A DNA stretch of 64,000 nt, taken from assembly GCA_027021615.1 (NCBI GenBank), contig JALUTY010000017.1, positions 1 to 64,000 on the forward strand, given 5' to 3'. The notes under the pieces were generated by a model. It saw only the letters and a list, made by a program, of their open reading frames with translations. It was not told the origin of the DNA and ran no database searches. Positions within the stretch are counted from its first letter, which is position 1, and each line of letters opens with the position of its first letter. The translations under genes and the position numbers were made by a program. Source of the DNA: a bacterium (GTDB lineage: Bacteria > Desulfobacterota > Deferrisomatia > Deferrisomatales > Deferrisomataceae). This document shows, piece after piece, positions 1,064 through 13,575 of this stretch.

Positions 1064-1660
1064 TCACCCCTCCCCTTCCGCCCGGCCGGGGGCCCAGATC
1101 ACCGCCAGCACTCGGGCCGGCTCGCCCCCGTGGCAGGTGACCCGGTGGGGCAGGCTCGCGTCGTAGAGGATGGAGTCCCCCGGCTCCAGCACGTCGGTGT
1201 GGCCGGCCAGGTGCACCTCCATCCGGCCCTCGAGCACGAACAGGAACTCCTCACCCTCGTGCACCGACGGCTTGGGGTGGGGCACCGTGGGCGGCTCCAG
1301 GGTGATCAGAAACGGCTCCACCCGCCGATTCTTCTTGCCAAACCCCAGGGACTCGTAGGTGTACCCGTAGGACACCCCTTCCTTGGAGGCAAACCGGGAC
1401 ACCTGCCGCCGCTCCCCCCTCCGGACGATGGTGTAGGGCTCGCCCGGCCCCTCGCCCCACAGCTCGCCCAGGCGAACGCCCAGGGCCTGGGCGATCCGAC
1501 CCAGGGCACCCAGGGGCGGGCTCACCATGTGGTTCTCGATCTGGTTGAGGAGGGCAGAGGTGTACCCGGTGCGGTCCGCTAGCTCCTGCAGCGTGACGCC
1601 GGCCCCCTCCCTCACCTGCCGGATCCGCTCGCCCACGGTGGTTTCGTTGAGCTCGGCCAT
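1064..1660 (-). CDS. XRE-family HTH regulator with C-terminal cupin sensor domain
   Basis: Encodes 198 aa. Residues about 8-66 form a classic XRE helix-turn-helix (VGERIRQVREGAGVTLQELA followed by a TSALLNQIEN recognition helix). Residues about 115-185 form a cupin_2 barrel (HEGEEFLFVLEG and the LEPGDSILYDASLPHRV metal/ligand face). Such regulators sense small ligands in the cupin and bind operator DNA. The ATG at 1660 has GGAGG upstream and lies 20 bp after the stop of the 2-oxoacid oxidoreductase gamma gene, so it probably controls, or is co-transcribed with, that operon. The target and ligand are not shown by the sequence. Confidence 0.88.
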   Translation of the reverse strand: MAELNETTVGERIRQVREGAGVTLQELADRTGYTSALLNQIENHMVSPPLGALGRIAQALGVRLGELWGEGPGEPYTIVRRGERRQVSRFASKEGVSYGYTYESLGFGKKNRRVEPFLITLEPPTVPHPKPSVHEGEEFLFVLEGRMEVHLAGHTDVLEPGDSILYDASLPHRVTCHGGEPARVLAVIWAPGRAEGEG

Positions 1661-1680
1661 GTTCCCCTCCGGCTCTGCGC

Positions 1681-2232
1681 TCACGCCATCGCCCGGCCGG
1701 CGCCGGCCTCCAGGGCCTTCTGATTCAAGGGAATCAAACGGTGCACTTTCTCCGGCAGGACCTCCGGCAGCACCTCGGCCACGGCGTCCACCGGGAGCAC
1801 CCCGCTCGCGGTCACGTAGGCGCCCAGGGCCACCATGCTGGCCAGCCGCGGGTCTCCCAGCTCCGCGGCCACGTCGTTGCACGGCACCCGAACCATCCGC
1901 ACGTCCTCCCGATCCAGCACGCCGTCGGGCACGATGGAGGTGTTCACCACCACCACGCCCCCGGCCCGCACCCGGGGTCCGAACTTGACCAGGGACGGCT
2001 CGTTCATCGCCACCAGACCCAGGGGCCGGGCCGTGACCGGGCTTCCGATCTCCCGGTCGGAAACGGTCACCGTGCAGTTGGCCGTTCCTCCCCGCATCTC
2101 CACACCGTACGCCGGGAAGAAGGTAACCCGGTAGCCCCGCCGCAGCGCGCCTACGGCCAGGAGGTTGCCGATCATCAGGATTCCCTGTCCCCCGAACCCT
2201 GCCATGATGATGTCGTGATGCATCGCTTTCAC
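1681..2232 (-). CDS. 2-oxoacid:ferredoxin oxidoreductase gamma subunit (VorC/KorC type)
   Basis: Encodes 183 aa and matches the pyruvate/2-oxoacid oxidoreductase gamma family, with the opening HHDIIMAGFGGQGILMIGN and the conserved FFPAYGVEMRGGTANCTV segment that follows it. In these complexes the gamma subunit helps bind CoA and works with alpha and beta subunits in decarboxylating a 2-oxoacid to an acyl-CoA. The start is GTG at 2232, or ATG three codons later; AGGAG lies about 12 bases upstream of the GTG. Its partners (2629-4654) are on the same strand but separated by ~400 bp of repeats, although subunits of this enzyme are normally adjacent. Confidence 0.9.
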   Translation of the reverse strand: MKAMHHDIIMAGFGGQGILMIGNLLAVGALRRGYRVTFFPAYGVEMRGGTANCTVTVSDREIGSPVTARPLGLVAMNEPSLVKFGPRVRAGGVVVVNTSIVPDGVLDREDVRMVRVPCNDVAAELGDPRLASMVALGAYVTASGVLPVDAVAEVLPEVLPEKVHRLIPLNQKALEAGAGRAMA

Positions 2233-2362
2233 TCGTTCTGTGGCTCCTGCGGAGCGGGAGGACTCCCGCCGGGCGGGGTCCGAACCGGGTTATACCAAGT
2301 TGCGTTCAAAGCTACCGTTTCCTGAACCGACCCGACAAGGGGCCTGGTGGAGCGCCGGGCTG

Positions 2363-2628
2363 ATACCAAGTCGCGTTCAAAACTATTGCCCCCTGTCCAG
2401 AGGGGCAAGGGTCCTGTCGGAGAGCCGGGCGCGGCCCCTTCGCTCGCCGCGCAGTGCCTCCGGCGTCTGGACTGCGAAAGGGTTCGGATCCCAACGGGTT
2501 GCCATGAAGCCAGCTCCCCCGCCCCGTGCCTGCGCGGCGAATCTCAATGCCTGGCTTCGCGCCCGGCCGGAGGCAGGCCCCTTGTCGGACCCCCGAAGGG
2601 TGCCTCTTTGAACACGATTCAGTTGGTA

Positions 2629-2629
<1 letters not shown>
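2363..2629. repeat. Composite repeat bracketed by inverted ATACC motifs
   Basis: The gap 2233-2628 between the gamma and TPP-subunit genes contains no gene. A motif ATACCAAGTCGCGTTCAAA at 2363 recurs inverted at its right edge (TTTGAACACG...GGTAT, ending 2629), abutting the stop codon of the TPP-subunit gene. Another forward copy of the motif lies at 2292, and a partial PE1 left end at about 2338-2361. PE1 copy b lies inside. The same ATACC motif brackets the element at 6261-6483 and precedes the one at 36902. Confidence 0.65.
2406..2584. repeat. Palindromic element PE1, copy b (179 bp)
   Basis: The ends CAAGGGTCCTG and CAGGCCCCTTG are complementary except for one position. The interior is homologous to the copies at 194-374 and 30172-30352, including the CGCCGCGCAG/CTGCGCGGCG inner inverted pair. 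The end sequence differs from the other copies but still pairs with its own partner end. Confidence 0.75.
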
Positions 2630-3377
<748 letters not shown>

Positions 3378-3381
<4 letters not shown>

Positions 3382-4454
3382 GCCGCCTCCTCCCCGGCGG
3401 GCAGACGCCGCACGATCTCGTCGTAGATGTCGTCGGGGCTCGGCAGGTGCCCCGGCGGGTACCCGGCGAAGTGCACCGGCGCCCGGCCCTCCACGGCCAG
3501 GCGCACGTCCTCCACCATCTGGCCGGTGTTCAGCTCGACCGTAAGCAGCGGCACCCCTTGCTCGGCCACCTTCCGGACCTCCGCCTCCGGAAACGGCCAC
3601 AGGGTGATGGGCCGCACGTACCCCACCCTCCGGCCCTCGTCGTTCAGGCGGTCCACCGCGCTTTTGGCGATGCGGGCGGCGGACCCGAACGCCACCACGG
3701 CCAGCTCGCACCCCTCGGGCAGCTCGGTCTGGACCCGGGTCTCCTCTCGGCGGATCCGCTCGTATTTCTGGGCCAGCTTCCAGTTGTGCTCGGCCAGCTC
3801 GCCGTCGCCCAGGTAGAGGGACTTGATCCGCCGGCCCGGCCGGCCTGCGGCGCCGGTGAGGGCCCATTCGTCCTTGGCCGGCTCCTGGCTCTCGGGCACC
3901 CACTCCTTCAGCGGCTCCTTCATCATCCCGATCATGGCGTCCGCCAGCACCATCACCGGGGTGCGGTACGCGTCGGCCAGATCGAAGGCCAGCACGGTGA
4001 GGTCGTACATCTCCTGCACCGATGCCGGGGCCAAAACGATCACGCGGTAGTCCCCGTGCCCCCCCCCGCGGGTGGCTTGGAAGTAGTCGCCCTGGCTCGG
4101 GGCGATGCCCCCCAGGCCCGGGCCAGACCGCTGCACGTTCACGATCACCCCGGGGACCTCGCTGCCGGCCATGTAGCTGATGCCCTCCTGCTTCAGACTG
4201 ATGCCCGGGCTGGAGGAGCTGGTCATCGCCCGCTTGCCGGTGGCCCCGGCGCCCAGCAGCATGTTGACGGAGGCCACCTCGCTCTCGGCCTGCACGAACT
4301 GACCGCCGAGCCGGGGCAGCACCCCGCTCAGGTACTCGGGGATGTCGCTCTGGGGGGTGATGGGGTACCCGAAGTAGTACCGGCACCCCGCAGCCACCGC
4401 CGCCTTGGCCAGGGCCACGTTCCCCTTCTCGAAGGTCACCTTGCTCTCGCTCAT
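3378..4454 (-). CDS. vorB: 2-oxoacid:ferredoxin oxidoreductase alpha subunit (VorB/KorA type)
   Basis: Encodes 358 aa. Residues about 7-60 ([20 protein letters not shown], then [14 protein letters not shown]) are the pyrimidine-binding domain signature, followed by [21 protein letters not shown] and the glycine-rich [20 protein letters not shown], all characteristic of the subunit often called VorB in deltaproteobacteria. A transketolase C-like domain ends the protein. The order is ferredoxin subunit, alpha, TPP subunit, each overlapping the next by 4 bases. The expected role is oxidation of amino-acid-derived 2-oxoacids to acyl-CoA, in the cytoplasm. Confidence 0.92.
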
Positions 4455-4654
4455 TTCCAGACCTCGATCACCACCTCGGGGCACATCCGGGCGCAGATCG
4501 CACACCCGGTGCACGCCTCGGGGTCCCGGAGGCCCACCGGCCGATATCCCAAAGGGTTCAGGCGGTCGGTGATCTCCAGGCAGCTCTTGGGGCAGAACTC
4601 CACACAGATGCTGCAACCTTTGCAGCGGTCGTCCCGGATCACCAGCTTTGGCAT
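4451..4654 (-). CDS. 2-oxoacid:ferredoxin oxidoreductase delta (2x[4Fe-4S]) subunit
   Basis: Encodes 67 aa. Two CxxCxxCxxxCP motifs are present ([12 protein letters not shown] and [12 protein letters not shown]), the hallmark of the small dicluster ferredoxin subunit that carries electrons out of the enzyme. It is the first gene of the operon and its stop overlaps the alpha subunit start. The AT-rich region upstream (about 4735-4860) separates it from a divergent gene and probably holds the promoters. Confidence 0.93.
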
Positions 4655-4885
4655 ACCTCTCCTCCGTTCGATGGAGCCGCGGACCTTACCAGCGGCCCTT
4701 CCGAGGTGTCAATCGCTCCAACCACCCGCCTCACCAACATTTATCACTGTCACAATTCGTTTGATTCTCACAAAACAACAAAAACCTCCCCCACCCCCTT
4801 CACAAAACTAGAAACTGGGCTAAACTATAAGACAAACTCTGTTTTACATCATCCGAGCCCTCACGGAAGGGAAAGGAGGAGCGAG
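4655..4885. promoter_or_regulatory. AT-rich divergent promoter region
   Basis: About 120 bases (4735-4860) are strikingly AT-rich against the ~70% GC background and lie between divergent genes. TATAAG at 4826-4831 is a possible -10 box for the rightward gene, but no convincing -35 lies at the right distance. Both promoters are presumably here; exact boxes are not called. Confidence 0.5.
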
Positions 4886-5284
4886 ATGGCCATGGCAGCC
4901 AACAGGAGAGGGCCCAGGATCCGAGCCCCCATGCCGGTGTTGCTGCGGCTACGCGGCCTGGCCCCGGAGCTGGCACGGTTCGTAAGCGAGGCCGGAGAAG
5001 AGGTGGAAGCCGTGCCCTGCGGCAAGGGGGTCTGCGCCCTGGTGGGATCGCCCCCCGATCGCTTTCGGATCGTGTGGATCGACGAGAGGGGCCGTCGGTG
5101 TTTGGACGACGAGCTCCCGGCCGAGCAGCTTGATCAGGTCCGCGACCGGATCCGGGAGGCGTACTTCCACACCCCGTGGGACACCCGCTACCTGAGCGAG
5201 GCGGGAAGCCGTACGTTCCTGGTGGCGGTGTCCGACGATCTGGCCGACGCGATCCGGGACGCCTGCGGCGCGGCGATCGACTGA
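4886..5284 (+). CDS. Protein of unknown function
   Basis: Encodes 132 aa. The ATG at 4886 follows a strong GGAAAGGAGGAG site; a longer open frame upstream lies in the AT-rich promoter region and is unlikely. The protein is acidic with one CGKGVC pair of cysteines (around residues 45-50) and no signal peptide or membrane segment. I do not recognise the family. It is monocistronic, ending in a strong bidirectional terminator, and divergent from the 2-oxoacid oxidoreductase operon, which could point to shared regulation. Confidence 0.75.
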   Translation: MAMAANRRGPRIRAPMPVLLRLRGLAPELARFVSEAGEEVEAVPCGKGVCALVGSPPDRFRIVWIDERGRRCLDDELPAEQLDQVRDRIREAYFHTPWDTRYLSEAGSRTFLVAVSDDLADAIRDACGAAID

Positions 5285-5310
5285 AGCGCTGCCCTCGCGT
5301 CGAAGCGGAA

Positions 5311-5339
5311 ACGGGAGGGGTGGCGACTACCCCTCCCGT
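5311..5339. terminator. Bidirectional terminator
   Basis: A perfect 10-bp stem ACGGGAGGGG / CCCCTCCCGT with a 9-base loop lies between two convergent genes. The last codons and stop of the leftward Clp1-like gene (5327) lie inside it, so it serves both strands. No long T run follows. Confidence 0.7.
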
Positions 5340-6130
5340 CCGCTTTCGGGATCCACCTTGAGCGCCCCCAACCGAACCACGCACACCCGGCCGAGGTCCA
5401 CGGGGGTGTAAACCGCCTGCCGCTCGCCCCACCGGGTCATCACCCCCAGCCCCACACAGAACCCGCCCTCGTCCAGGAGCCCCGCCAGCCGTCCTGGCGC
5501 CACGGCCCCGGTGCCGTACACCGGCGTCTCCCGGGGCAGGAGCACCTCCCGCCCCCCGGCCAGATGTTCCCGAAACCGCTGGGCGCGGGCGGCGGCCCGC
5601 TCCTCGAAGCTGCGGCACCGCACCCCCCGACCCGGGGGGACCCGGACCACCTGGAACCGAGGGTCTCCCTCCATGGGCCCCAGGATCGGCTCCAGCTCGC
5701 CGTCCACCTCCAACCCCACCACCGTGCAAGGAGCCAGGGCCTCCGCCTTCCAGGTCTTGAGGGCCACGCCCCCCTCGGACGGCGCGACCAGCCCCGTGGT
5801 GTCCACCACCACCCGGCCACACCCCTCCTCCCGGGCACGGGCCGCCAACCGCAGCACCCCGACCACGCAGGGAAGCATGTGAGCCCGCGGGGAGGTGCTC
5901 CCCACGAACCACCGGGCTGCCACCCGGGGGTCCCGGCCCGGCCGGCATACGGCCACAGACTGGACCGTGGGGGGCCCCAGCACCCCCTGACCCACGTCCG
6001 CGTCCACCCATCCCACGGTCTCCCCCCTAGACGTCCAGTGGTCGATCCAGGTGCGCACCCAGGTGGTCTTCCCCCGGTCGGTCCGGCCCACCACCAGGAC
6101 GGTGGAGGCGTCCACGGCCCTTTCCGTCAT
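5327..6130 (-). CDS. Clp1/Grc3-family P-loop protein (polynucleotide 5'-hydroxyl kinase-like)
   Basis: Encodes 267 aa. The Walker A loop GRTDRGKTT (residues ~15-23) and the segment WVDADVGQGVLGPPTVQS (~41-58) match the Clp1/Nol9/Grc3 kinase family, which in eukaryotes and archaea phosphorylates RNA 5'-OH ends. Bacterial members are annotated Clp1-like and mostly uncharacterised. The C-terminal ~100 residues form the extra beta domain (GTGAVAPGRLAGLLDEGGFCVGLG). Here it is followed by a terminator and has no operon partner, but the RtcB-associated archease gene is 14 kb away. The RNA substrate and activity are inference. Confidence 0.82.
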   Translation of the reverse strand: MTERAVDASTVLVVGRTDRGKTTWVRTWIDHWTSRGETVGWVDADVGQGVLGPPTVQSVAVCRPGRDPRVAARWFVGSTSPRAHMLPCVVGVLRLAARAREEGCGRVVVDTTGLVAPSEGGVALKTWKAEALAPCTVVGLEVDGELEPILGPMEGDPRFQVVRVPPGRGVRCRSFEERAAARAQRFREHLAGGREVLLPRETPVYGTGAVAPGRLAGLLDEGGFCVGLGVMTRWGERQAVYTPVDLGRVCVVRLGALKVDPESGREG

Positions 6131-6133
6131 GGC

Positions 6134-6230
6134 AACTTCGGTCGTCGGTCTGGGGCCTTCGGCCCGCTAGGAGGCTGGGACGTTAGGACGCTGGGACGCT
6201 CGGAGGCTGGGAGGCTAAAAGGCCAAAAAC
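6134..6230 (+). repeat. Modular repeat MR (7-bp array, hairpin, 8-bp array)
   Basis: AACTTCGGTCGTCGGTC is followed by the hairpin GGGGCCTTCGGCCCGC and then seven degenerate units of GCTRGGAG with an 8-base period. The same three-part unit recurs in most long gaps of this window. The whole gap 6131-6607 holds this unit, a palindromic element (6284-6448) and a fragment of PE4 (6484-6562), and no gene. Confidence 0.8.
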
Positions 6231-6283
6231 CTCCTGGCTCCCACGCGTTGCAGGTCACGTATACCGCGTCGCATTCGAAGCCA

Positions 6284-6448
6284 GCGATTTGGGGGCCGCT
6301 GGCCCGGAGCGCTACGGCCGAGCCGTTCAAGCCGCTCGGCGCAGGGGAGCGCCCGCGGCGCGTGCTCTCACGCACCGCAGCGGACCGAGCCGTAGCGGCT
6401 TCGGCGAGGCCGTCTTTTCCGGCGGAGGACCGACGGCCCCCAAATCGC
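6284..6448. repeat. Palindromic element PE3, copy a (165 bp)
   Basis: The ends GCGATTTGGGGGCCG (6284-6298) and CGGCCCCCAAATCGC (6434-6448) are a perfect 15-bp inverted repeat. The core shares ACGCACCGCAGCGGACCG and ACGGCCGAGC blocks with copy b at 10467-10600. It is further bracketed by inverted ATACC motifs at 6261 and 6483. Confidence 0.75.
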
Positions 6449-6483
6449 CCCTCTATGAGCTCATCTGGGTCGCAAATTGGTAT

Positions 6484-6562
6484 CAGACGACAGTGGGCAG
6501 GGAGAAGGACTACCCCGGGTAATCGGGTGAAGCGGTTTTTCGAAACGCCTGCCCTCCGTCCG
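6484..6562 (+). repeat. Fragment of repeat PE4
   Basis: The sequence from CAGACGACAGTGGGCAGGG to CCCTCCGTCCGC aligns with parts of 37150-37240 and, on the other strand, 55500-55580. The terminal inverted repeats seen in the fuller copies are absent. Confidence 0.6.
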
Positions 6563-6607
6563 CCGTGGCCCGTCTTCTGCCCCCCCACCTCCCCGATCGA
6601 GGTGCGC

Positions 6608-7264
6608 CTATTTTGTCGCCGGGCTGACAATGCTCCCCCCCGCCGTCCCGGCGAGCTCCCGGCCCAGGACGAAGGCCTCCCGGTTGGCGTCGAACCCGGG
6701 CAGCCGCTCCCGAACGGTCTCGAGCAGGGCCTCGTCCGGCACCGGCAGTTGGCCCAGGGCCGAGGCGAGCCCCAACGCGATCACGTTCACCTGCCGAAGC
6801 GACCCGAACCGCTCCCGGGACGCGGCCTCCAATCCCACCAGGCACCCCCGGGGGGTCACCTCGGCGATCCAGTCGCGGATCCGCTCCACCGGAGGGTACT
6901 CGGCGCTCCCCAGCCGCACCGCCGTGGGCGTGCGGGGCGCGACCTCGCTGATGACCACCGTGTCCGGGTTCATGAGCGCCAGGCTCCGGGCCGCTTCCAG
7001 GGGCTCCAGGGCGATCACCATGTGGGCCCCGCCCCGGGGGATCAGGCCCGAGAACGCCTGCCTGCGGGGATTCTCCGCCTCCTCGGGCTCCAGGGTCCGG
7101 TAGCGCACGTGGGAGGTGACCCGCCCCTCCCGCTGGGCCCCGCCCCGGCGCTCGGCACCCGTGACCTCCACCCCGGCCCGGATCGCGGCCAGCTTGAGCA
7201 GGGTGCCCAGGGTGATCACCCCCTGGCCCCCGATGCCGGCGATCAGGATGTCGTAGCGCCTCAT
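6608..7264 (-). CDS. iorB: Indolepyruvate ferredoxin oxidoreductase beta subunit
   Basis: Encodes 218 aa of the 2-oxoacid oxidoreductase gamma-like family, opening MRRYDILIAGIGGQGVITLG with the GAERRGGAQREGRVTSHVR segment typical of IorB. Together with IorA it converts aryl pyruvates (indolepyruvate, phenylpyruvate, hydroxyphenylpyruvate from aromatic amino acid transamination) to aryl-acetyl-CoA and reduced ferredoxin. Its start overlaps the iorA stop (ATGA). The last codons fall in a small palindrome (TTGTCGCCGGGCTGACAA) that recurs at 20769-20791. Confidence 0.92.
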   Translation of the reverse strand: MRRYDILIAGIGGQGVITLGTLLKLAAIRAGVEVTGAERRGGAQREGRVTSHVRYRTLEPEEAENPRRQAFSGLIPRGGAHMVIALEPLEAARSLALMNPDTVVISEVAPRTPTAVRLGSAEYPPVERIRDWIAEVTPRGCLVGLEAASRERFGSLRQVNVIALGLASALGQLPVPDEALLETVRERLPGFDANREAFVLGRELAGTAGGSIVSPATK

Positions 7265-9162
7265 GCCGCCCTCCCCCGCCGCACCCGGGTCCGGGTGATG
7301 GCCGAGTTGGGACAGATCTCCTCGCACACCCCGCACCGTTGGCACAGCCCCAGATCGATGACATACACCGGCCCTTCTGCCCCCTCCTCTTCGCGAATCG
7401 CGGGGCAGGCCAGGTCCCGGTAGCATCGGTGACACCGTTGGCACCGCTCGGGGTCCAGGTCCACCCACTCCTCCTGGAGTGCCAGCGCCCCCTTCCTGCG
7501 GCGCTCGGACTGCAGGGCGCACTCGCCCTCCACCACGATCACCCGCACGCCCGAGCCGGCCAGGGCCTCCCGGAGCAGCACCTCCAGGGGCCGCACGCGG
7601 AAGGCGTCGGCCCGGCGGACCCACTCCACCCCCAGGCTCCGGACGAACCCCACCAGGTCCACCGCCTTGCGGGGCGTTCCGTTCACCAGCCGGTCGGTGG
7701 TGGGGCTCGGCTGGTGGCCGGTCATGGCCACCCACCGGTTGTCCAGGATGAGCAGCACCAGGTCGGCCCCGTTCTGGACCGCGTTGAGCAGGGTGGGCAC
7801 GCCGGAGTGGAAGAACGTGGAGTCCCCCACCAGGGCCACCACCGGGTCGTCCGAGACCTGGGCAATGGCCTGGCCGCTGCCGGCACCGCAGTTCATGCAG
7901 GTTACCCAGTCCGACACCCGGAACGGGGGCAGCACCGACAGGGTGTAGCAGCCGATGTCCCCCGCGAACACGGTGTCGGGTCCGGCCGCCCGTCGCAGGG
8001 CGAAGTTGGTGGCCCGGTGGGGGCATCCCGGGCAGAACGCCCCCTGCCGGGGGGGCATCTCGGCCCGGTGCCGCTCCAGGGCCTCGGAGCCCCGGCGCCG
8101 GTCGTGGGGCAGCCGGCCGCCCAGGGCCTCGGCCAGGGCGTCGGTCACCCGGTCCACGTCCACCTCGCCGGTGGCCGGGAACAGCTCCTTGCCCACGATG
8201 GGAACGCGCACCCCGGCGTCGTAGGCCCACCGCTTGGCTTGGAACTCCAGGAACCCCTCCAGCTCCTCCACGAACACGGCCCGGTCCAGCCCTTCGAGAA
8301 AGCGGGTCACCAGCCGGGGGTCCAGGGGGTAGCTCATACCCACCTTGAGCACCGGCACATCGTCCAGGCCGAGGATCTCCAGGGCCTCCATCGTGTAGGC
8401 GAACAGCAGGCCCGAGCACACGATCCCCACCCGGCCCCGGCCCGGGATCACCCGGTTCAAACCCAGCCGGCCGGCATCGGCCCGAAGCCGCTCCACGTTG
8501 GCCAGGCACCGGCCGTGGTTCTTCACCGCTAAGTCGAACAGGTTCAGGTACCGCTCGGGGTTGCGCTCGAACCCACCCCGGTACGTCACTCGCTCTGGCA
8601 GGGGACCCAGCCGCAGGGTGCCGATGTTGTGACACAGCTTGGACGGGGCGTTCACCACGAACGGAAGGTCGTAGGCCTCCGACAGCTCCAAGGCCTGCCG
8701 GGTCATCTCCTTGGCCTCCTGGATGTCGGCCGGCTCCAGCACGGGCAGGTGGGTGTGCAGGCTGTACCACCGGTCGTCCTGCTCGCCGGTGGAGCTGGTG
8801 GCCCCCGGATCCGAGCCCAGGACCACCACCATGCCGGCCCGCACGCCGGTGTACCCGGCAAAGTGGAACGGCTCGGCCGCCACGTTCATGCCCACGTGCT
8901 TCATGGCCACCATGGACCGCACCCCGGCCCAGGAGGCCCCCAGGGCGCCCAGGGCGGCCACGTGCTCGTTGGTACTGATCTCGGCGTACAGGCCCGGGAA
9001 CTCCTCCCGCAGGCCCTGGAGCACCGTGCCGACCTCGCTGGCCGGGGTACCAGGGTAAGTGGAGAAGTAGCCCAGGCCCGCCTCGATCCCCCCCCGGGCC
9101 AGGGCCTCGTTGCCCATGGCCAGCACGGCCCGTCCGCTCTCCGACGACGCCAGTGGGTTCAC
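7261..9162 (-). CDS. iorA: Indolepyruvate ferredoxin oxidoreductase alpha subunit
   Basis: Encodes 633 aa. The GTG start at 9162 has GGAGG at good spacing and overlaps the previous stop (GTGA). The N-terminal pyrimidine domain begins MGNEALARGGIEAGLGYFSTYPGTP (with a break, residues ~15-40); the TPP domain shows CPGCPHRATNFAL and GDIGCYTL...CMNCGAGSGQA. The C-terminal ~60 residues carry a cysteine-rich ferredoxin region (CQRCHRCYRDLAC and CQRCGVCEEICP). Length and order fit IorA. The enzyme is soluble and oxygen-sensitive in known relatives. Confidence 0.94.
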   Translation of the reverse strand: MNPLASSESGRAVLAMGNEALARGGIEAGLGYFSTYPGTPASEVGTVLQGLREEFPGLYAEISTNEHVAALGALGASWAGVRSMVAMKHVGMNVAAEPFHFAGYTGVRAGMVVVLGSDPGATSSTGEQDDRWYSLHTHLPVLEPADIQEAKEMTRQALELSEAYDLPFVVNAPSKLCHNIGTLRLGPLPERVTYRGGFERNPERYLNLFDLAVKNHGRCLANVERLRADAGRLGLNRVIPGRGRVGIVCSGLLFAYTMEALEILGLDDVPVLKVGMSYPLDPRLVTRFLEGLDRAVFVEELEGFLEFQAKRWAYDAGVRVPIVGKELFPATGEVDVDRVTDALAEALGGRLPHDRRRGSEALERHRAEMPPRQGAFCPGCPHRATNFALRRAAGPDTVFAGDIGCYTLSVLPPFRVSDWVTCMNCGAGSGQAIAQVSDDPVVALVGDSTFFHSGVPTLLNAVQNGADLVLLILDNRWVAMTGHQPSPTTDRLVNGTPRKAVDLVGFVRSLGVEWVRRADAFRVRPLEVLLREALAGSGVRVIVVEGECALQSERRRKGALALQEEWVDLDPERCQRCHRCYRDLACPAIREEEGAEGPVYVIDLGLCQRCGVCEEICPNSAITRTRVRRGRAA

Positions 9163-9713
9163 GGCGACACCTCCAGGGGCACCAGGTCCCCGCCGGGCCC
9201 CTGCCGGACGAGGCTCAGGCCCGGGATCGGCTCGGGCGGCTCGCCCCCTGCAGGCACGATCCACCGGCTCACCCCGACCCCGGTCAGGACCCCGGCCCGG
9301 GCCCGCTCGGCCGGCGTGGTCAGCCGACCCGAGGCCCAGAGCTCCAGCCCGACCCCGGCTTGCCCGAGCACCCCAGCCAGAACCGCGGGGTCCAGCTCGT
9401 ACACGGCCGCTGCCTCCGCCGGACCCGGGGATCCGGTCAGGAGCCACAGGCCCCGGCACCCCAGGGCCTCGGCGCCCCGGGCCTCGGCCACCAGCGCCGT
9501 GCGGTTGCGGTCCCGGCACACCAACGGCACCACCACGGGTCGATCCGGGGTCTCCGACAGCACCCGGCCCGCCAGGGCGAGGGCGTGCACCCCGTCCGCC
9601 GGATCCCCGAGCACCACCCCCACCTCCGGGGTCAGCTCCCGGAGCCGGGCGCACACCCGATCCACGGCCTCGGGCCCGACCCGACCCACCAACACCCAGG
9701 ATGCCGCGCTCAT
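9159..9713 (-). CDS. Short MTHFR-like protein
   Basis: Encodes 184 aa. The segment VVPLVCRDRNRTALVAEARG followed by AEALGCRGLWLLTGSP corresponds to the conserved folate/FAD region of methylenetetrahydrofolate reductase (MetF), and GDPADGVHALALAG to the strand before it. Typical MetF has ~290 residues, so roughly the last third of the TIM barrel is missing. It overlaps the MetV-like gene upstream and iorA downstream by 4 bases each, so it is not a decayed remnant by position. It may be a divergent MetF that functions only with the MetV-like partner; activity is uncertain. Confidence 0.7.
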   Translation of the reverse strand: MSAASWVLVGRVGPEAVDRVCARLRELTPEVGVVLGDPADGVHALALAGRVLSETPDRPVVVPLVCRDRNRTALVAEARGAEALGCRGLWLLTGSPGPAEAAAVYELDPAVLAGVLGQAGVGLELWASGRLTTPAERARAGVLTGVGVSRWIVPAGGEPPEPIPGLSLVRQGPGGDLVPLEVSP

Positions 9714-10354
9714 CTCGTCCTCCGTCCCGTGGATCTGGGGCGGCGCACCGGGGGGGCGGGCGGCCGTACCGTCCCGAACGCCCCGATCCGGCCCAGCGTC
9801 TCCAACCGTTCCCAGATCCGCTCCCACACGCACTCCAGGCCGGGCTCGGCCTCGCATGCGCCCGCGTTGGCCTCTTCGCAAGGCCCGTTGCGCAGCCCCT
9901 TGGGGCAGCCCGTCACCGGGCAGATGCCGCCGGTCGCGTTGAGCACGCACGCTCCGCACAGAGCGCACTGCTCGTGGAACACCCCCACCCGCTCCACGGT
10001 GCCCACGAAGTGGGCGTCGAGCCCGGCCACCACCGGCTTGCCCACCAGCTCGGCCACCGCTTGCGCGCCCCCTCCGCAGGTGAGGCACACCACCCCGTCG
10101 GCCGCTTCCAGCTCCCGGACCACCCGCTTCAAGTCCCGGCGGGTAAGCCTGCGGTCGCAAGGCGACGGCAGATCGACCCGGGCCAGCACCTCGAGCCCCT
10201 CGTCCTCCATCCGCTCGGCCAGCTCGTCCACCTGGGAGGAGCCGCCCGTCTGGCACACGGCCGCACAGTCCGCGCACCCCATCACGATCCACCGCTTCCC
10301 GTCTCCCAGGGCGAACCGAATTTCGTCCCAGGGCTTCGGCGTCGTCACGACCAT
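9710..10354 (-). CDS. MetV-like methylenetetrahydrofolate reductase C-terminal-domain protein
   Basis: Encodes 214 aa. The cysteine-rich stretch CALCGACVLNATGGICPVTG followed by CPKGLRNGPC, CVWERIWERLETLGR is the signature of the MTHFR_C domain (PF12225) found in MetV, the iron-sulfur/zinc partner of MetF in acetogens and related anaerobes. Residues ~20-35 add CADCAAVC. The ATG at 10354 has GAGGAGG ten bases upstream; an ATG at 10375 would lie before that site. It is first in an operon with the short MTHFR-like gene and iorAB, an unusual partnership linking folate one-carbon reduction with ferredoxin-reducing aromatic 2-oxoacid oxidation. Confidence 0.85.
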   Translation of the reverse strand: MVVTTPKPWDEIRFALGDGKRWIVMGCADCAAVCQTGGSSQVDELAERMEDEGLEVLARVDLPSPCDRRLTRRDLKRVVRELEAADGVVCLTCGGGAQAVAELVGKPVVAGLDAHFVGTVERVGVFHEQCALCGACVLNATGGICPVTGCPKGLRNGPCEEANAGACEAEPGLECVWERIWERLETLGRIGAFGTVRPPAPPVRRPRSTGRRTR

Positions 10355-10378
10355 CAGGAAAGAACCTCCTCTCATGGA

Positions 10379-10763: not shown

Positions 10764-10791
10764 TTGACTCGGCGGGCCAGGAGCGTAGAAT
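10764..10791 (+). promoter_or_regulatory. Sigma70-type promoter of trkH
   Basis: TTGACT (10764-10769), a 16-base spacer and TAGAAT (10786-10791) match the housekeeping consensus well. A start near 10798 rules out the TTG codon at 10764 as the trkH start and supports GTG at 10854. Confidence 0.65.
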
Positions 10792-10853
10792 GGCGCCGTT
10801 TTTTGGCCCGGCCCTCCAGTTTCCCCATCTTCACCGACGGATCGAACGACCCC

Positions 10854-12242
10854 GTGCGACTCTCCTCCGTCTCCCCTGCCGCCGTTCTGGAGCGGATCCT
10901 CCACCCGGCCCAGGTGCTGGCGCTGTCCTTCGGGGCGGCCATCCTGGTGGGCGCCGGGCTCCTGATGACCCCCTGGGCGTCCACCGGAGCCCCGCTCGGC
11001 TTTGTGGACGCCCTGTTCACGGCCACATCGGCCACCTGCGTGACGGGGCTGGTGGTGGTGGACACGGGCACGGCCCTGACCCGCTTCGGGCAAGGGGTGG
11101 TGCTGACCCTGATCCAGCTCGGCGGGCTGGGGATCATGACCTATTCCAGCGTGTTCCTCCTGTTGGCCGGCCGGGGCCTCTCGTTCCGGGGCGAGGCCCT
11201 GGTGGAGGAGACCCTGGGCCAAAAGCACCGCACCTCCCCCCACCGGCTCGTGCGCGACGTGTTCCGGTTCACCCTGATTATCGAGGCCGCGGGCGCAGCG
11301 GTCCTGTATACGGTGTTCTCCCGGTCCCAGCCTTGGGACGAGGCCCTGTACTCGGCCGTGTTCCACAGCGTGTCCGCGTTCTGCAACGCCGGCTTCTCCC
11401 TGTACGCAACCAGCTTCACGGCGTACCGGGGCGACTGGGTGCTGAATCTCACCATCATGACCCTGATCACCTTGGGAGGGGTGGGGTTCCTGGTCCTGGA
11501 GGACCTGGCCGACGCGTGGAAGGACCGCCGAGCCGGCCGGCCGGCTCGGCTGGGGCTCCACACCAAGGTGGTGCTGACCACCTCGGCGGTCCTCACGTTC
11601 GGCGGGGCTGCAGGAGTTTGGTTCTTCGAGGCTCCGAACACCTTGGCCGGCCTCCCCTGGCAGGACCAGCTGCTGGCAAGCCTGTTCCAGGCGGTAACGG
11701 CCCGCACGGCCGGGTTCAACACCCTGGACTATGGGGTTCTAACCAACACCACCTTGTTCCTCACGATCCTCCTGATGTTCGTGGGGGCGAGCCCAGGGTC
11801 CTGTGGGGGCGGGATCAAGACCACCACCTTTGCGGTGGTGGTGGGGCTGTTCCGGGACCGGCTGCGGGCCCGGGAGCGGGTGAGCCTGTACCGCCGCACC
11901 CTGCCCGAGGCCACCGTGGCTCGGGCCGTGTCCTTGCTGATGGCATCGTTTACGTTCGTCACCCTGGTGGTGTTCGCGCTGCTGGTCACCGAGATCGGGC
12001 CGGTGCCCCACCAAATGGGCGGGGGACGGTTTCTGGAGATCTTCTTCGAGGCGGTCAGCGCGTTCGGTACCGTGGGGCTCTCCACGGGAATCACCTCCTC
12101 GGTGTCCACGGCCGGCCGGCTCCTGCTGACCCTAACCATGTTCGTGGGCCGGGTGGGCCCGCTGACCCTGGCCATCGCCGTGGGTCGAAAGCGGGAACCG
12201 GGCCGGTTCCTGTACGCAGAAGAGAACCTGATGGTGGGATGA
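10854..12242 (+). CDS. trkH: Potassium uptake protein, TrkH/KtrB family
   Basis: Encodes about 462 aa from the GTG at 10854; the frame is open further upstream to 10764, but that segment overlaps the promoter. The protein shows repeated M1-P-M2 units with selectivity-filter segments (TSATCVTGLVV, HSVSAFCNAGFSL, QAVTARTAGFN, EAVSAFGTVGLS), typical of K+ translocating TrkH/KtrB in the inner membrane. The stop overlaps the first trkA start (TGATG), so translocation and cytoplasmic gating subunits are co-translated. A weak ribosome binding site leaves the precise start uncertain. Confidence 0.9.
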   Translation: MRLSSVSPAAVLERILHPAQVLALSFGAAILVGAGLLMTPWASTGAPLGFVDALFTATSATCVTGLVVVDTGTALTRFGQGVVLTLIQLGGLGIMTYSSVFLLLAGRGLSFRGEALVEETLGQKHRTSPHRLVRDVFRFTLIIEAAGAAVLYTVFSRSQPWDEALYSAVFHSVSAFCNAGFSLYATSFTAYRGDWVLNLTIMTLITLGGVGFLVLEDLADAWKDRRAGRPARLGLHTKVVLTTSAVLTFGGAAGVWFFEAPNTLAGLPWQDQLLASLFQAVTARTAGFNTLDYGVLTNTTLFLTILLMFVGASPGSCGGGIKTTTFAVVVGLFRDRLRARERVSLYRRTLPEATVARAVSLLMASFTFVTLVVFALLVTEIGPVPHQMGGGRFLEIFFEAVSAFGTVGLSTGITSSVSTAGRLLLTLTMFVGRVGPLTLAIAVGRKREPGRFLYAEENLMVG

Positions 12243-12898
12243 TGGCCAAACGATTCGCCGTGATCGGTCTGGGAAACTTCGGCATGGCCCTGGCCGCCGA
12301 GCTGGCCAGCCTGGGAAGGCGTGTGCTGGCCGTGGACGTGAACGCCGAGCGGGCCCGCGAGGCCCAGGCCTTCGTGGACCAGGCCGTGGTCACCGACGCC
12401 ACCGAGATCACGAACCTCAAGGCCGTGGGCCTGGCGGAGACCGACGTGGCCACGGTGAGCCTGGGGGGCCGGATGGAGGCATCGATCCTGGTGGTGCTCC
12501 ACCTGACCCGGCTCGGGGTGCCCGAGATCGTGGCCAAGGCCCTCACCGAGGACCACGGCGAGATCCTGCGGCGGGTGGGCGCCACCCGGGTGGTTTTCCC
12601 CGAAAAGGATATGGCCCACCGGGTGGCCGAGCGGGTCAGCTCGCGCAACGTGCTGGACTACCTGTCCCTGGCGTCCGGGTTCGGGGTGCTCGAGCTGGCT
12701 CCGCCCCAGGAGATGGTGGGGAAGAGCCTGTCAGAGCTGGACCTTACCCGACGGTTCGGCGTCCAGGTGGTGGCGGTGAAGGAGCTCGTGCCGGAGCGAA
12801 TCCATATCACCCCGCCCCCGGACCGGGTGGTGAAGGACAGCGACATCCTGGTCGTGTATGGCCCCAGGGAGGCCGTGCGCAAGCTCAAGGAAGCCTGA
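12242..12898 (+). CDS. trkA: TrkA/KtrA potassium channel gating subunit (first copy)
   Basis: Encodes 218 aa. The Rossmann RCK_N domain begins KRFAVIGLGNFGMALAAELA (GxGxxG, residues ~9-14) and has the acidic ribose-binding residue in VLAVDVNAERA. An RCK_C domain follows (GVLELAPPQEMVGKSLSELDLTRR, with a break, residues ~140-218). It binds NAD(H)/ATP and gates the TrkH pore. It is immediately followed by a second, clearly paralogous trkA; both have the single-RCK length of KtrA rather than the double-domain length of E. coli TrkA. Confidence 0.9.
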   Translation: MAKRFAVIGLGNFGMALAAELASLGRRVLAVDVNAERAREAQAFVDQAVVTDATEITNLKAVGLAETDVATVSLGGRMEASILVVLHLTRLGVPEIVAKALTEDHGEILRRVGATRVVFPEKDMAHRVAERVSSRNVLDYLSLASGFGVLELAPPQEMVGKSLSELDLTRRFGVQVVAVKELVPERIHITPPPDRVVKDSDILVVYGPREAVRKLKEA

Positions 12899-12900
12899 TC

Positions 12901-13575
12901 ATGGAACGACGGCGATTCGCTGTGATCGGCCTGGGCAGCTTCGGGTTTCACCTGGCCCGGTACCTGTACGAGATGGGCCACGACGTGCTGGCCGTGGACC
13001 GAAACGCCCGAGTCGTGGACGCGGTGGAGCCGTTCTGCTCCCGGGCTCGGGTGGCCGACGCCTCCGACAAGGAGGACCTGGAGGCGGCAGGGGTGCACAA
13101 CGCCGAGGTGGCCGTGGTCAGCCTGGGCACCCGGATCGACTCCTCGATCCTGGCCACCCTGTACCTAAGAGAGTTCGGAGTGGGTGAGATCCTGGTCAAA
13201 GCGGTGTCTCACGACCACGCGCGCATTCTGGACCGCATCGGGGCTACCGAGGTGATCCAGCCCGAGCGGGACATGGCCGTGCAGGTGGCTCAGCGCCTGG
13301 CCGAGCCCGACGTCCTGGACCGCCTGCCGTTCCTCGAGGGTTACGTGCTCGTGGAGATCCGGGCCCCCCAGGGCCTGTGGGGCCGCACCTTGGCCCAGGC
13401 CCACCTGCGCCGCAGGTGGAAGCTGTCCGTCGTCCAGGTTCGCCGCTGGGAGGGGGGGAGGGAGCAGGCCCTGTTCGCAAGCCCCGACCTGGAGCTGCGC
13501 CAGGGCGACGTGCTGGTGGTGCTGGCCAAACCCGGGGACGTGGAGCGGTTCCGGAAGGACCATCCGGGCCGCTGA
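12901..13575 (+). CDS. trkA: TrkA/KtrA potassium channel gating subunit (second copy)
   Basis: Encodes 224 aa, starting MERRRFAVIGLGSFGFHLAR two bases after the previous stop. The RCK_N fold, VLAVDRNARVVDAVE, and the RCK_C region (EGYVLVEIRAPQGLWGRTLA) are intact. Overall similarity to the upstream copy is moderate, mainly GLGxFG, the VSLGxRxxxSIL block and the DMAxxVAxR block. The two may form a mixed ring on TrkH, or one may sense a different nucleotide; this is inference. It is the last gene of the trk operon. Confidence 0.9.
   Translation: MERRRFAVIGLGSFGFHLARYLYEMGHDVLAVDRNARVVDAVEPFCSRARVADASDKEDLEAAGVHNAEVAVVSLGTRIDSSILATLYLREFGVGEILVKAVSHDHARILDRIGATEVIQPERDMAVQVAQRLAEPDVLDRLPFLEGYVLVEIRAPQGLWGRTLAQAHLRRRWKLSVVQVRRWEGGREQALFASPDLELRQGDVLVVLAKPGDVERFRKDHPGR

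Follow-up and report, generated by a model that had tools for sequence, protein, structure and literature searches.

In the 64,000-nucleotide stretch of a Deferrisomataceae genome analysed here (hereafter the window; assembly GCA_027021615.1, contig JALUTY010000017.1, positions 1 to 64,000), four minus-strand genes encode, in order, a MetV-like protein, a shortened relative of methylenetetrahydrofolate reductase (MTHFR) and the two subunits of an oxidoreductase of the indolepyruvate oxidoreductase (IOR) type, which we call metV*, metF*, iorA* and iorB*. The gene order and the overlaps between the genes recur in related genomes, and the quartet is thereby supported as a conserved, translationally coupled operon. 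We propose, with a probability of about 45%, that it specifies one four-subunit, lineage-specific 2-oxoacid:acceptor oxidoreductase, in which MetV* would act as an electron wire and MetF* as a non-catalytic dock. The most likely role of the operon would be that of a private electron outlet rather than a folate reductase.

The operon begins with metV* (9710..10354, minus strand), which encodes a 214-amino-acid (aa) Fe-S/Zn protein of family PF12225 and is preceded by AGGAGG immediately 5′ of the ATG at 10354, an alternative upstream ATG at 10375 being less likely. It is followed on the same strand by metF* (9159..9713; a compact MTHFR-derived barrel of 184 aa), iorA* (7261..9162; 633 aa with a GTG start, the large thiamine pyrophosphate (TPP)/ferredoxin subunit of an IOR-type 2-oxoacid:acceptor oxidoreductase) and iorB* (6608..7264; 218 aa, the small, gamma-type subunit, PF01558). 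Successive genes share 4 bp, namely ATGA at 9710..9713 (metV*/metF*), GTGA at 9159..9162 (metF*/iorA*) and ATGA at 7261..7264 (iorA*/iorB*), all on the minus strand. An earlier note on this DNA had described this order and these overlaps correctly at all three junctions, but its title spoke of fused genes, whereas the quartet consists of four separate overlapping open reading frames.

The earlier note had also suggested that conservation of the neighbourhood be examined across relatives, and this comparison yielded complete quartets in four genomes of the Deferrisomatales: the window genome (G000), a complete single-contig genome of the same genus, Deferrisoma (G002), a genome of the same family (G003) and one from another family of the order (G007). 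A fifth copy, in G001, is interrupted by a contig end. All three overlaps are kept in the four complete copies, and every one of their junctions (12/12) spans exactly 4 bp. Because the same order and overlaps recur in G002, G003 and G007, one of the four genomes being a single contig, the quartet is attributable neither to chance nor to an assembly artefact. In G007 the operon lies between a uvrC-like gene upstream and an aldo/keto-reductase-like gene downstream (named by eye), whereas in the other three complete copies TrkH/TrkA-like genes (again named by eye) lie upstream and a gene for a P-loop protein, of CLP1 type by Pfam in G002, lies downstream; therefore, the four genes form a conserved core. 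The remaining seven genomes of the order contain a real MetV and another IorA, and the quartet was not found in them. Similarly, no further orthologue of MetF*, MetV* or IorA* was found among the 395 genomes of the phylum that were sampled. The scan of genome contigs relied on exact peptide patterns, and rare copies in other phyla are possible. Neither metV nor metF adjoins iorA at the 15 closest IorA loci from other families. A distant MetF* candidate from Aminicenantes (L047) was rejected, as the match holds no MetF-like frame and the long frame there resembles a corrinoid-activation/ferredoxin-type protein. In the papers found there is no description of a metV-ior operon, an IOR-linked MTHFR or a degenerate MetF; from these comparisons the combination of known parts looks new and confined to few genomes.

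The earlier note had called the second gene product MTHFR-like, a designation that holds only at the level of remote homology. MetF* has no Pfam MTHFR match and a single weak NCBIfam match (MTHFR-containing protein, E 1.8e-4), and a sequence search of the PDB with it returned nothing meaningful. A profile of the four MetF* sequences, aligned by hhalign with a profile of 31 MetFs, nevertheless matched at 97.9-98.5 probability, covering the first half of the barrel. Prediction of the protein alone, likewise suggested in the earlier note, gave an MTHFR-like barrel: the AlphaFold2 model from the joint alignment (predicted local distance difference test (pLDDT) 79, predicted template modelling score (pTM) 0.79) has eight short strands, the helices of the last third are absent and the last two strands lie in a low-confidence region. 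The top 16 Foldseek matches of this model were all MTHFRs, and the VIA fold match to E. coli MTHFR gave Z 14.9 and a root-mean-square deviation of 2.7 over 164 residues. Because the profiles match and MTHFRs lead both fold searches, MetF* is, as judged from alignments and models, a remote descendant of MTHFR. A plain half-barrel fragment was rejected in view of the eight strands; the model, with its low confidence in the last two of them, is likely to represent a complete mini-barrel.

The residues on which MTHFR catalysis depends are missing from this barrel. In E. coli MetF numbering, the equivalent of the catalytic Glu28 is present in 0/4 MetF* sequences as compared to 24/26 MetFs, that of Asp120, which binds the pterin, again in none of the four as against 24/26 (MetF* has a gap followed by S, S, H or R), and that of Gln183 in 0/4 as against 22/26. 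The C-terminal third, which bears Gln183 and Phe223, is gone from all four orthologues, and strand 1 of MetF* contains no acidic residue. A Glu28Gln mutant retains about 0.01% of its activity, and neither the flavin-free Mfr nor Mer, an F420-dependent reductase, works without the corresponding Glu (PMC11094777). Since the catalytic residues are lost and the Glu is needed even in flavin-free and F420-dependent reductases, reduction of methylene-tetrahydrofolate (methylene-THF) by MetF* is unlikely. One known protein for comparison is mycobacterial Mfr (MSMEG_6649), a flavin-independent MTHFR that shares the barrel fold and the lack of a classical flavin site; unlike MetF*, Mfr is about 290 aa long and retains its essential Glu9 (PMC11094777).

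Complete MTHFRs are encoded elsewhere. A complete hdrA-mvhD-metV-metF-hdrCB operon is present in G002 (L043; hdr and mvh names by resemblance) and is divided between contigs C62 and C15 in the window genome; the MetF of this Hdr-type operon has its catalytic Glu and Asp intact. The window genome (L040, 6723-8285, on contig C15) and G002 also encode a 520-aa MetF that carries DUF5981, the C-terminal domain of MetV, at its own C terminus, a protein that occurs across the Deferrisomatales besides separate metV-metF genes. Continuous frames of 579-589 aa containing both MetV and MetF were seen in G001 (L073, 365-2134) and G004 (L023, 844-2583), and are either true fusions or sequencing-error joins.

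These data bear directly on the physical or energetic coupling of folate reduction to aromatic amino acid oxidation that the earlier note had put forward, in which MetV*F* would function as a methylene-THF reductase that receives its electrons straight from IorAB, with 2-oxoacid oxidation driving folate reduction. The MetV and MTHFR ancestry and the intact Fe-S cysteines of MetV* fit such a scheme, and a one-carbon (C1) folate pathway is probably present because the genome encodes an acetyl-CoA synthase (PF03598). In addition, an indolepyruvate oxidoreductase band appeared once in a Sporomusa ovata MetVF preparation, as one among several contaminants that was not found consistently (PMC9430772). 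However, all four orthologues have lost the Glu28, Asp120 and Gln183 positions together with the C-terminal third, and the genome holds both the Hdr-type metV-metF pair and the MetF-DUF5981 fusion; moreover, the methylene-THF/methyl-THF couple lies at -200 mV (PMC8515935), so that low-potential electrons would, on energetic grounds, be wasted on it. The earlier note had itself named, as findings that would overturn its proposal, an intact metF paired with a metV at another locus and the loss of conserved residues from the short gene in every relative, and both are observed here. We therefore regard folate reduction by this operon as very improbable. Some form of coupling is plausible from the conserved, coupled operon; coupling to folate reduction is unsupported.

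MetV* itself appears equipped for electron transfer. Its assignment to the MetV family, already made in the earlier note, is borne out by a PF12225 match of 98 bits (cut-off 23), and it retains 12/12 of the cysteines that are invariant among aligned MetVs. The MetV signature NGPCGG (PMC8515935) is altered to NGPCEE in the window protein, and to NGPCEE or NGPCEG across the orthologues. In MetVF enzymes, MetV carries two [4Fe-4S] clusters and MetF carries flavin mononucleotide (PMC8515935, PMC8760232). The AlphaFold model of MetV* (pLDDT 68) is poor in the cysteine-rich half, and a fold search with it found no significant similarity (lowest E 0.007); PDB sequence searches with MetV* and with the resident MetV yielded nothing meaningful. 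A tree of 40 MetVs places MetV* in a fully supported group of its own with a long stem. This group falls beyond the clade that holds the resident Hdr-type MetVs (100/100), in the company of MetVs whose genes lie near folD, glycine-cleavage or acs; an exact sister group is not fixed in this set, which was picked by similarity to MetV*. A recent duplication of the resident Hdr-type MetV is ruled out by this separation.

Other MetVs in the loci read adjoin C1, glycine-cleavage or Hdr enzymes, and in two members of the phylum metV occurs without an adjacent metF. One lies inside a folD-metV-gcvT-gcvH-gcvPA-gcvPB cluster (L161, contig C44 of G042, 1564-8230) and the other precedes OsmC-like, gcvH, lipoate-ligase-like and lipA genes (L159, contig C46 of G021, 6473-9964; names by eye in both). 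MetV may have electron-transfer roles near lipoyl proteins that are independent of MetF.

All four genes show signs of selective constraint. Between the two Deferrisoma genomes G000 and G002, the ratio of nonsynonymous to synonymous substitution rates (dN/dS), taken from simple Nei-Gojobori counts that are approximate for a GC-rich genome, was 0.13 for metV*, 0.26 for metF*, 0.11 for iorA* and 0.39 for iorB*, the last from few changes. Between genera metF* evolves fastest, at 43-45% identity as compared to 63-77% for its operon partners, suggesting that the gene is kept while the constraint on its sequence is relaxed, which would be expected of a structural subunit. Decay would offer another account, in which the pair is a remnant of a duplicated metVF that happens to precede iorAB, and the truncation of metF* and its loss of catalytic residues would be in keeping with this. 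In four genomes from two families the frames have nonetheless stayed open and the 4-bp overlaps intact, the dN/dS values of metV* and metF* between congeners are signs of purifying selection that contradict decay, and MetV* is no copy of the Hdr-type MetV encoded elsewhere in the genome, all of which makes a decaying remnant the least credible of the accounts considered.

The downstream partner is of the IOR type by its domains, as the earlier note had proposed, with POR_N (PF01855), TPP_enzyme_C (PF02775) and ferredoxin (PF00037) in IorA* and the POR small subunit domain (PF01558) in IorB*, all over cut-off. It shares with IorAB (TIGR03336/TIGR03334) the domain order, the TPP motif, the C-terminal ferredoxin cysteines and the small POR-type subunit. 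The narrower name of indolepyruvate oxidoreductase is insecure: three IorA* orthologues score 565, 561 and 570 bits against the TIGR03336 equivalog cut-off of 650.9, which a resident IorA paralogue passes at 717 bits, and the one IorB* tested scores 117 bits against 205.8 for TIGR03334. IorA* orthologues are 73-77% identical across genera and ~40% identical to other IorAs, and at positions constant in other aligned IorAs they change SSQNEQDNR to SST(G/S)EQDDR and CMGxS to CMNCG. By these sequence measures IorA* is a distinct subfamily. Because the cut-off is missed and constant residues are changed, indolepyruvate is a doubtful substrate and the enzyme may act on another.

In the mechanism that we favour, IorAB* would oxidise a 2-oxo acid, perhaps aryl or branched, to an acyl-CoA and CO2, or catalyse the reverse, and electrons would be exchanged between the ferredoxin domain of IorA*, with its two [4Fe-4S] clusters, and the clusters of MetV*, so that MetV* would give IorAB* an electron outlet or inlet of its own. 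MetF* would have lost methylenetetrahydrofolate reductase activity and would dock MetV* onto IorAB*, much as MetV and further electron carriers are held by full-length MetF in MetVF and Hdr-MetVF complexes. We suggest this adaptor role because the MetF end appears dead while MetV* is intact and the partner is an oxidoreductase with a ferredoxin domain. The route proposed for electrons in MetVF enzymes runs from donors via the MetV [4Fe-4S] clusters to the MetF flavin (PMC8515935, PMC8760232). Docking of MetF to electron-donor subunits has a precedent in Sporomusa ovata, where pulldowns with MetF bring down HdrA and HdrB and those with MetV bring down MetF and HdrA (PMC9430772). The broader proposition that a MetV wire moved from C1 metabolism to an IOR-type enzyme by way of a pseudoenzyme barrel, allowing ferredoxin-independent (or bifurcating) 2-oxoacid oxidation, is one that we hold more tentatively. 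If true, MetV would be a portable electron-transfer unit whose electron role is separable from methylene-THF catalysis, and MetF*, as a naturally occurring 'scaffold only' MTHFR, would help to locate the MetV-binding surface of the barrel.

Several observations weigh against this four-subunit complex. Residues 171-184 of the MetF* model fall below 50 in confidence. The 4-bp overlaps indicate co-translation, not necessarily a stable complex. Finally, the RDxNR motif that follows strand 3 at the mouth of the barrel is invariant in MetF* (4/4) and in the compared MetFs (26/26), 30/30 in all, and MetF* may therefore still bind a flavin or pterin. The last point would suit a rebuilt enzyme, in which MetF* still has a flavin or pterin at the mouth of its barrel and joins MetV* in a different redox reaction, one that acts on a product of 2-oxoacid oxidation or on one of its cofactors; the positions fixed among MetF* orthologues (D37-P38, E106, D108-P109, W126 and R130) likewise suggest a constrained function. 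The fast evolution of MetF*, the shrinkage of its active-site half and the lack of 25 aa in the Deferrisoma proteins at a place where G003 and G007 carry extra sequence speak against this, and we consider it unlikely. A comparable, rather low chance attaches to MetV*F* being a regulatory or accessory pair outside the electron path, for example one that senses folate or redox state or helps IorA* to mature, and that is co-translated with IorAB*. The operon data alone do not separate a subunit from an accessory factor, and MetF* looks catalytically dead. MetV*, however, retains all its cluster cysteines, the other MetV loci lie with C1, glycine-cleavage or Hdr enzymes, and we know of no regulatory MetV.

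The MTHFR types described in the literature consulted are MetF alone, MetVF, MetVF-RnfC2, Hdr-MetVF and a proposed NuoEFG-linked form (PMC8760232, PMC8515935). The operon resembles the MetVF (2S) type, as in Clostridium ljungdahlii, in having metV directly upstream of metF and in the 12 invariant MetV cysteines, but differs from it in the length of MetF* (184-213 aa, as compared to about 290-330 aa for MetF), the loss of catalytic residues, the altered NGPCGG and the presence of IorAB downstream. With the Hdr-type (6S, type IV) MetVF of Moorella and Sporomusa it has in common that a single operon joins a MetVF pair to an additional module for electron handling; here that module is an IOR-type oxidoreductase, and a true Hdr-type operon is encoded separately.

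The surroundings of the operon in the window include, ~2 kb downstream of the end of iorB*, the alpha, beta and gamma genes of another 2-oxoacid:ferredoxin oxidoreductase operon (1681-4616, minus strand), which in G002 also has a small ferredoxin subunit. On the other side, genes for K+ uptake, TrkH-like and two of them TrkA-like (named by eye), lie at 10764-13575 on the plus strand, divergent from the operon, and adjoin it also in G002 and G003 but not in G007.

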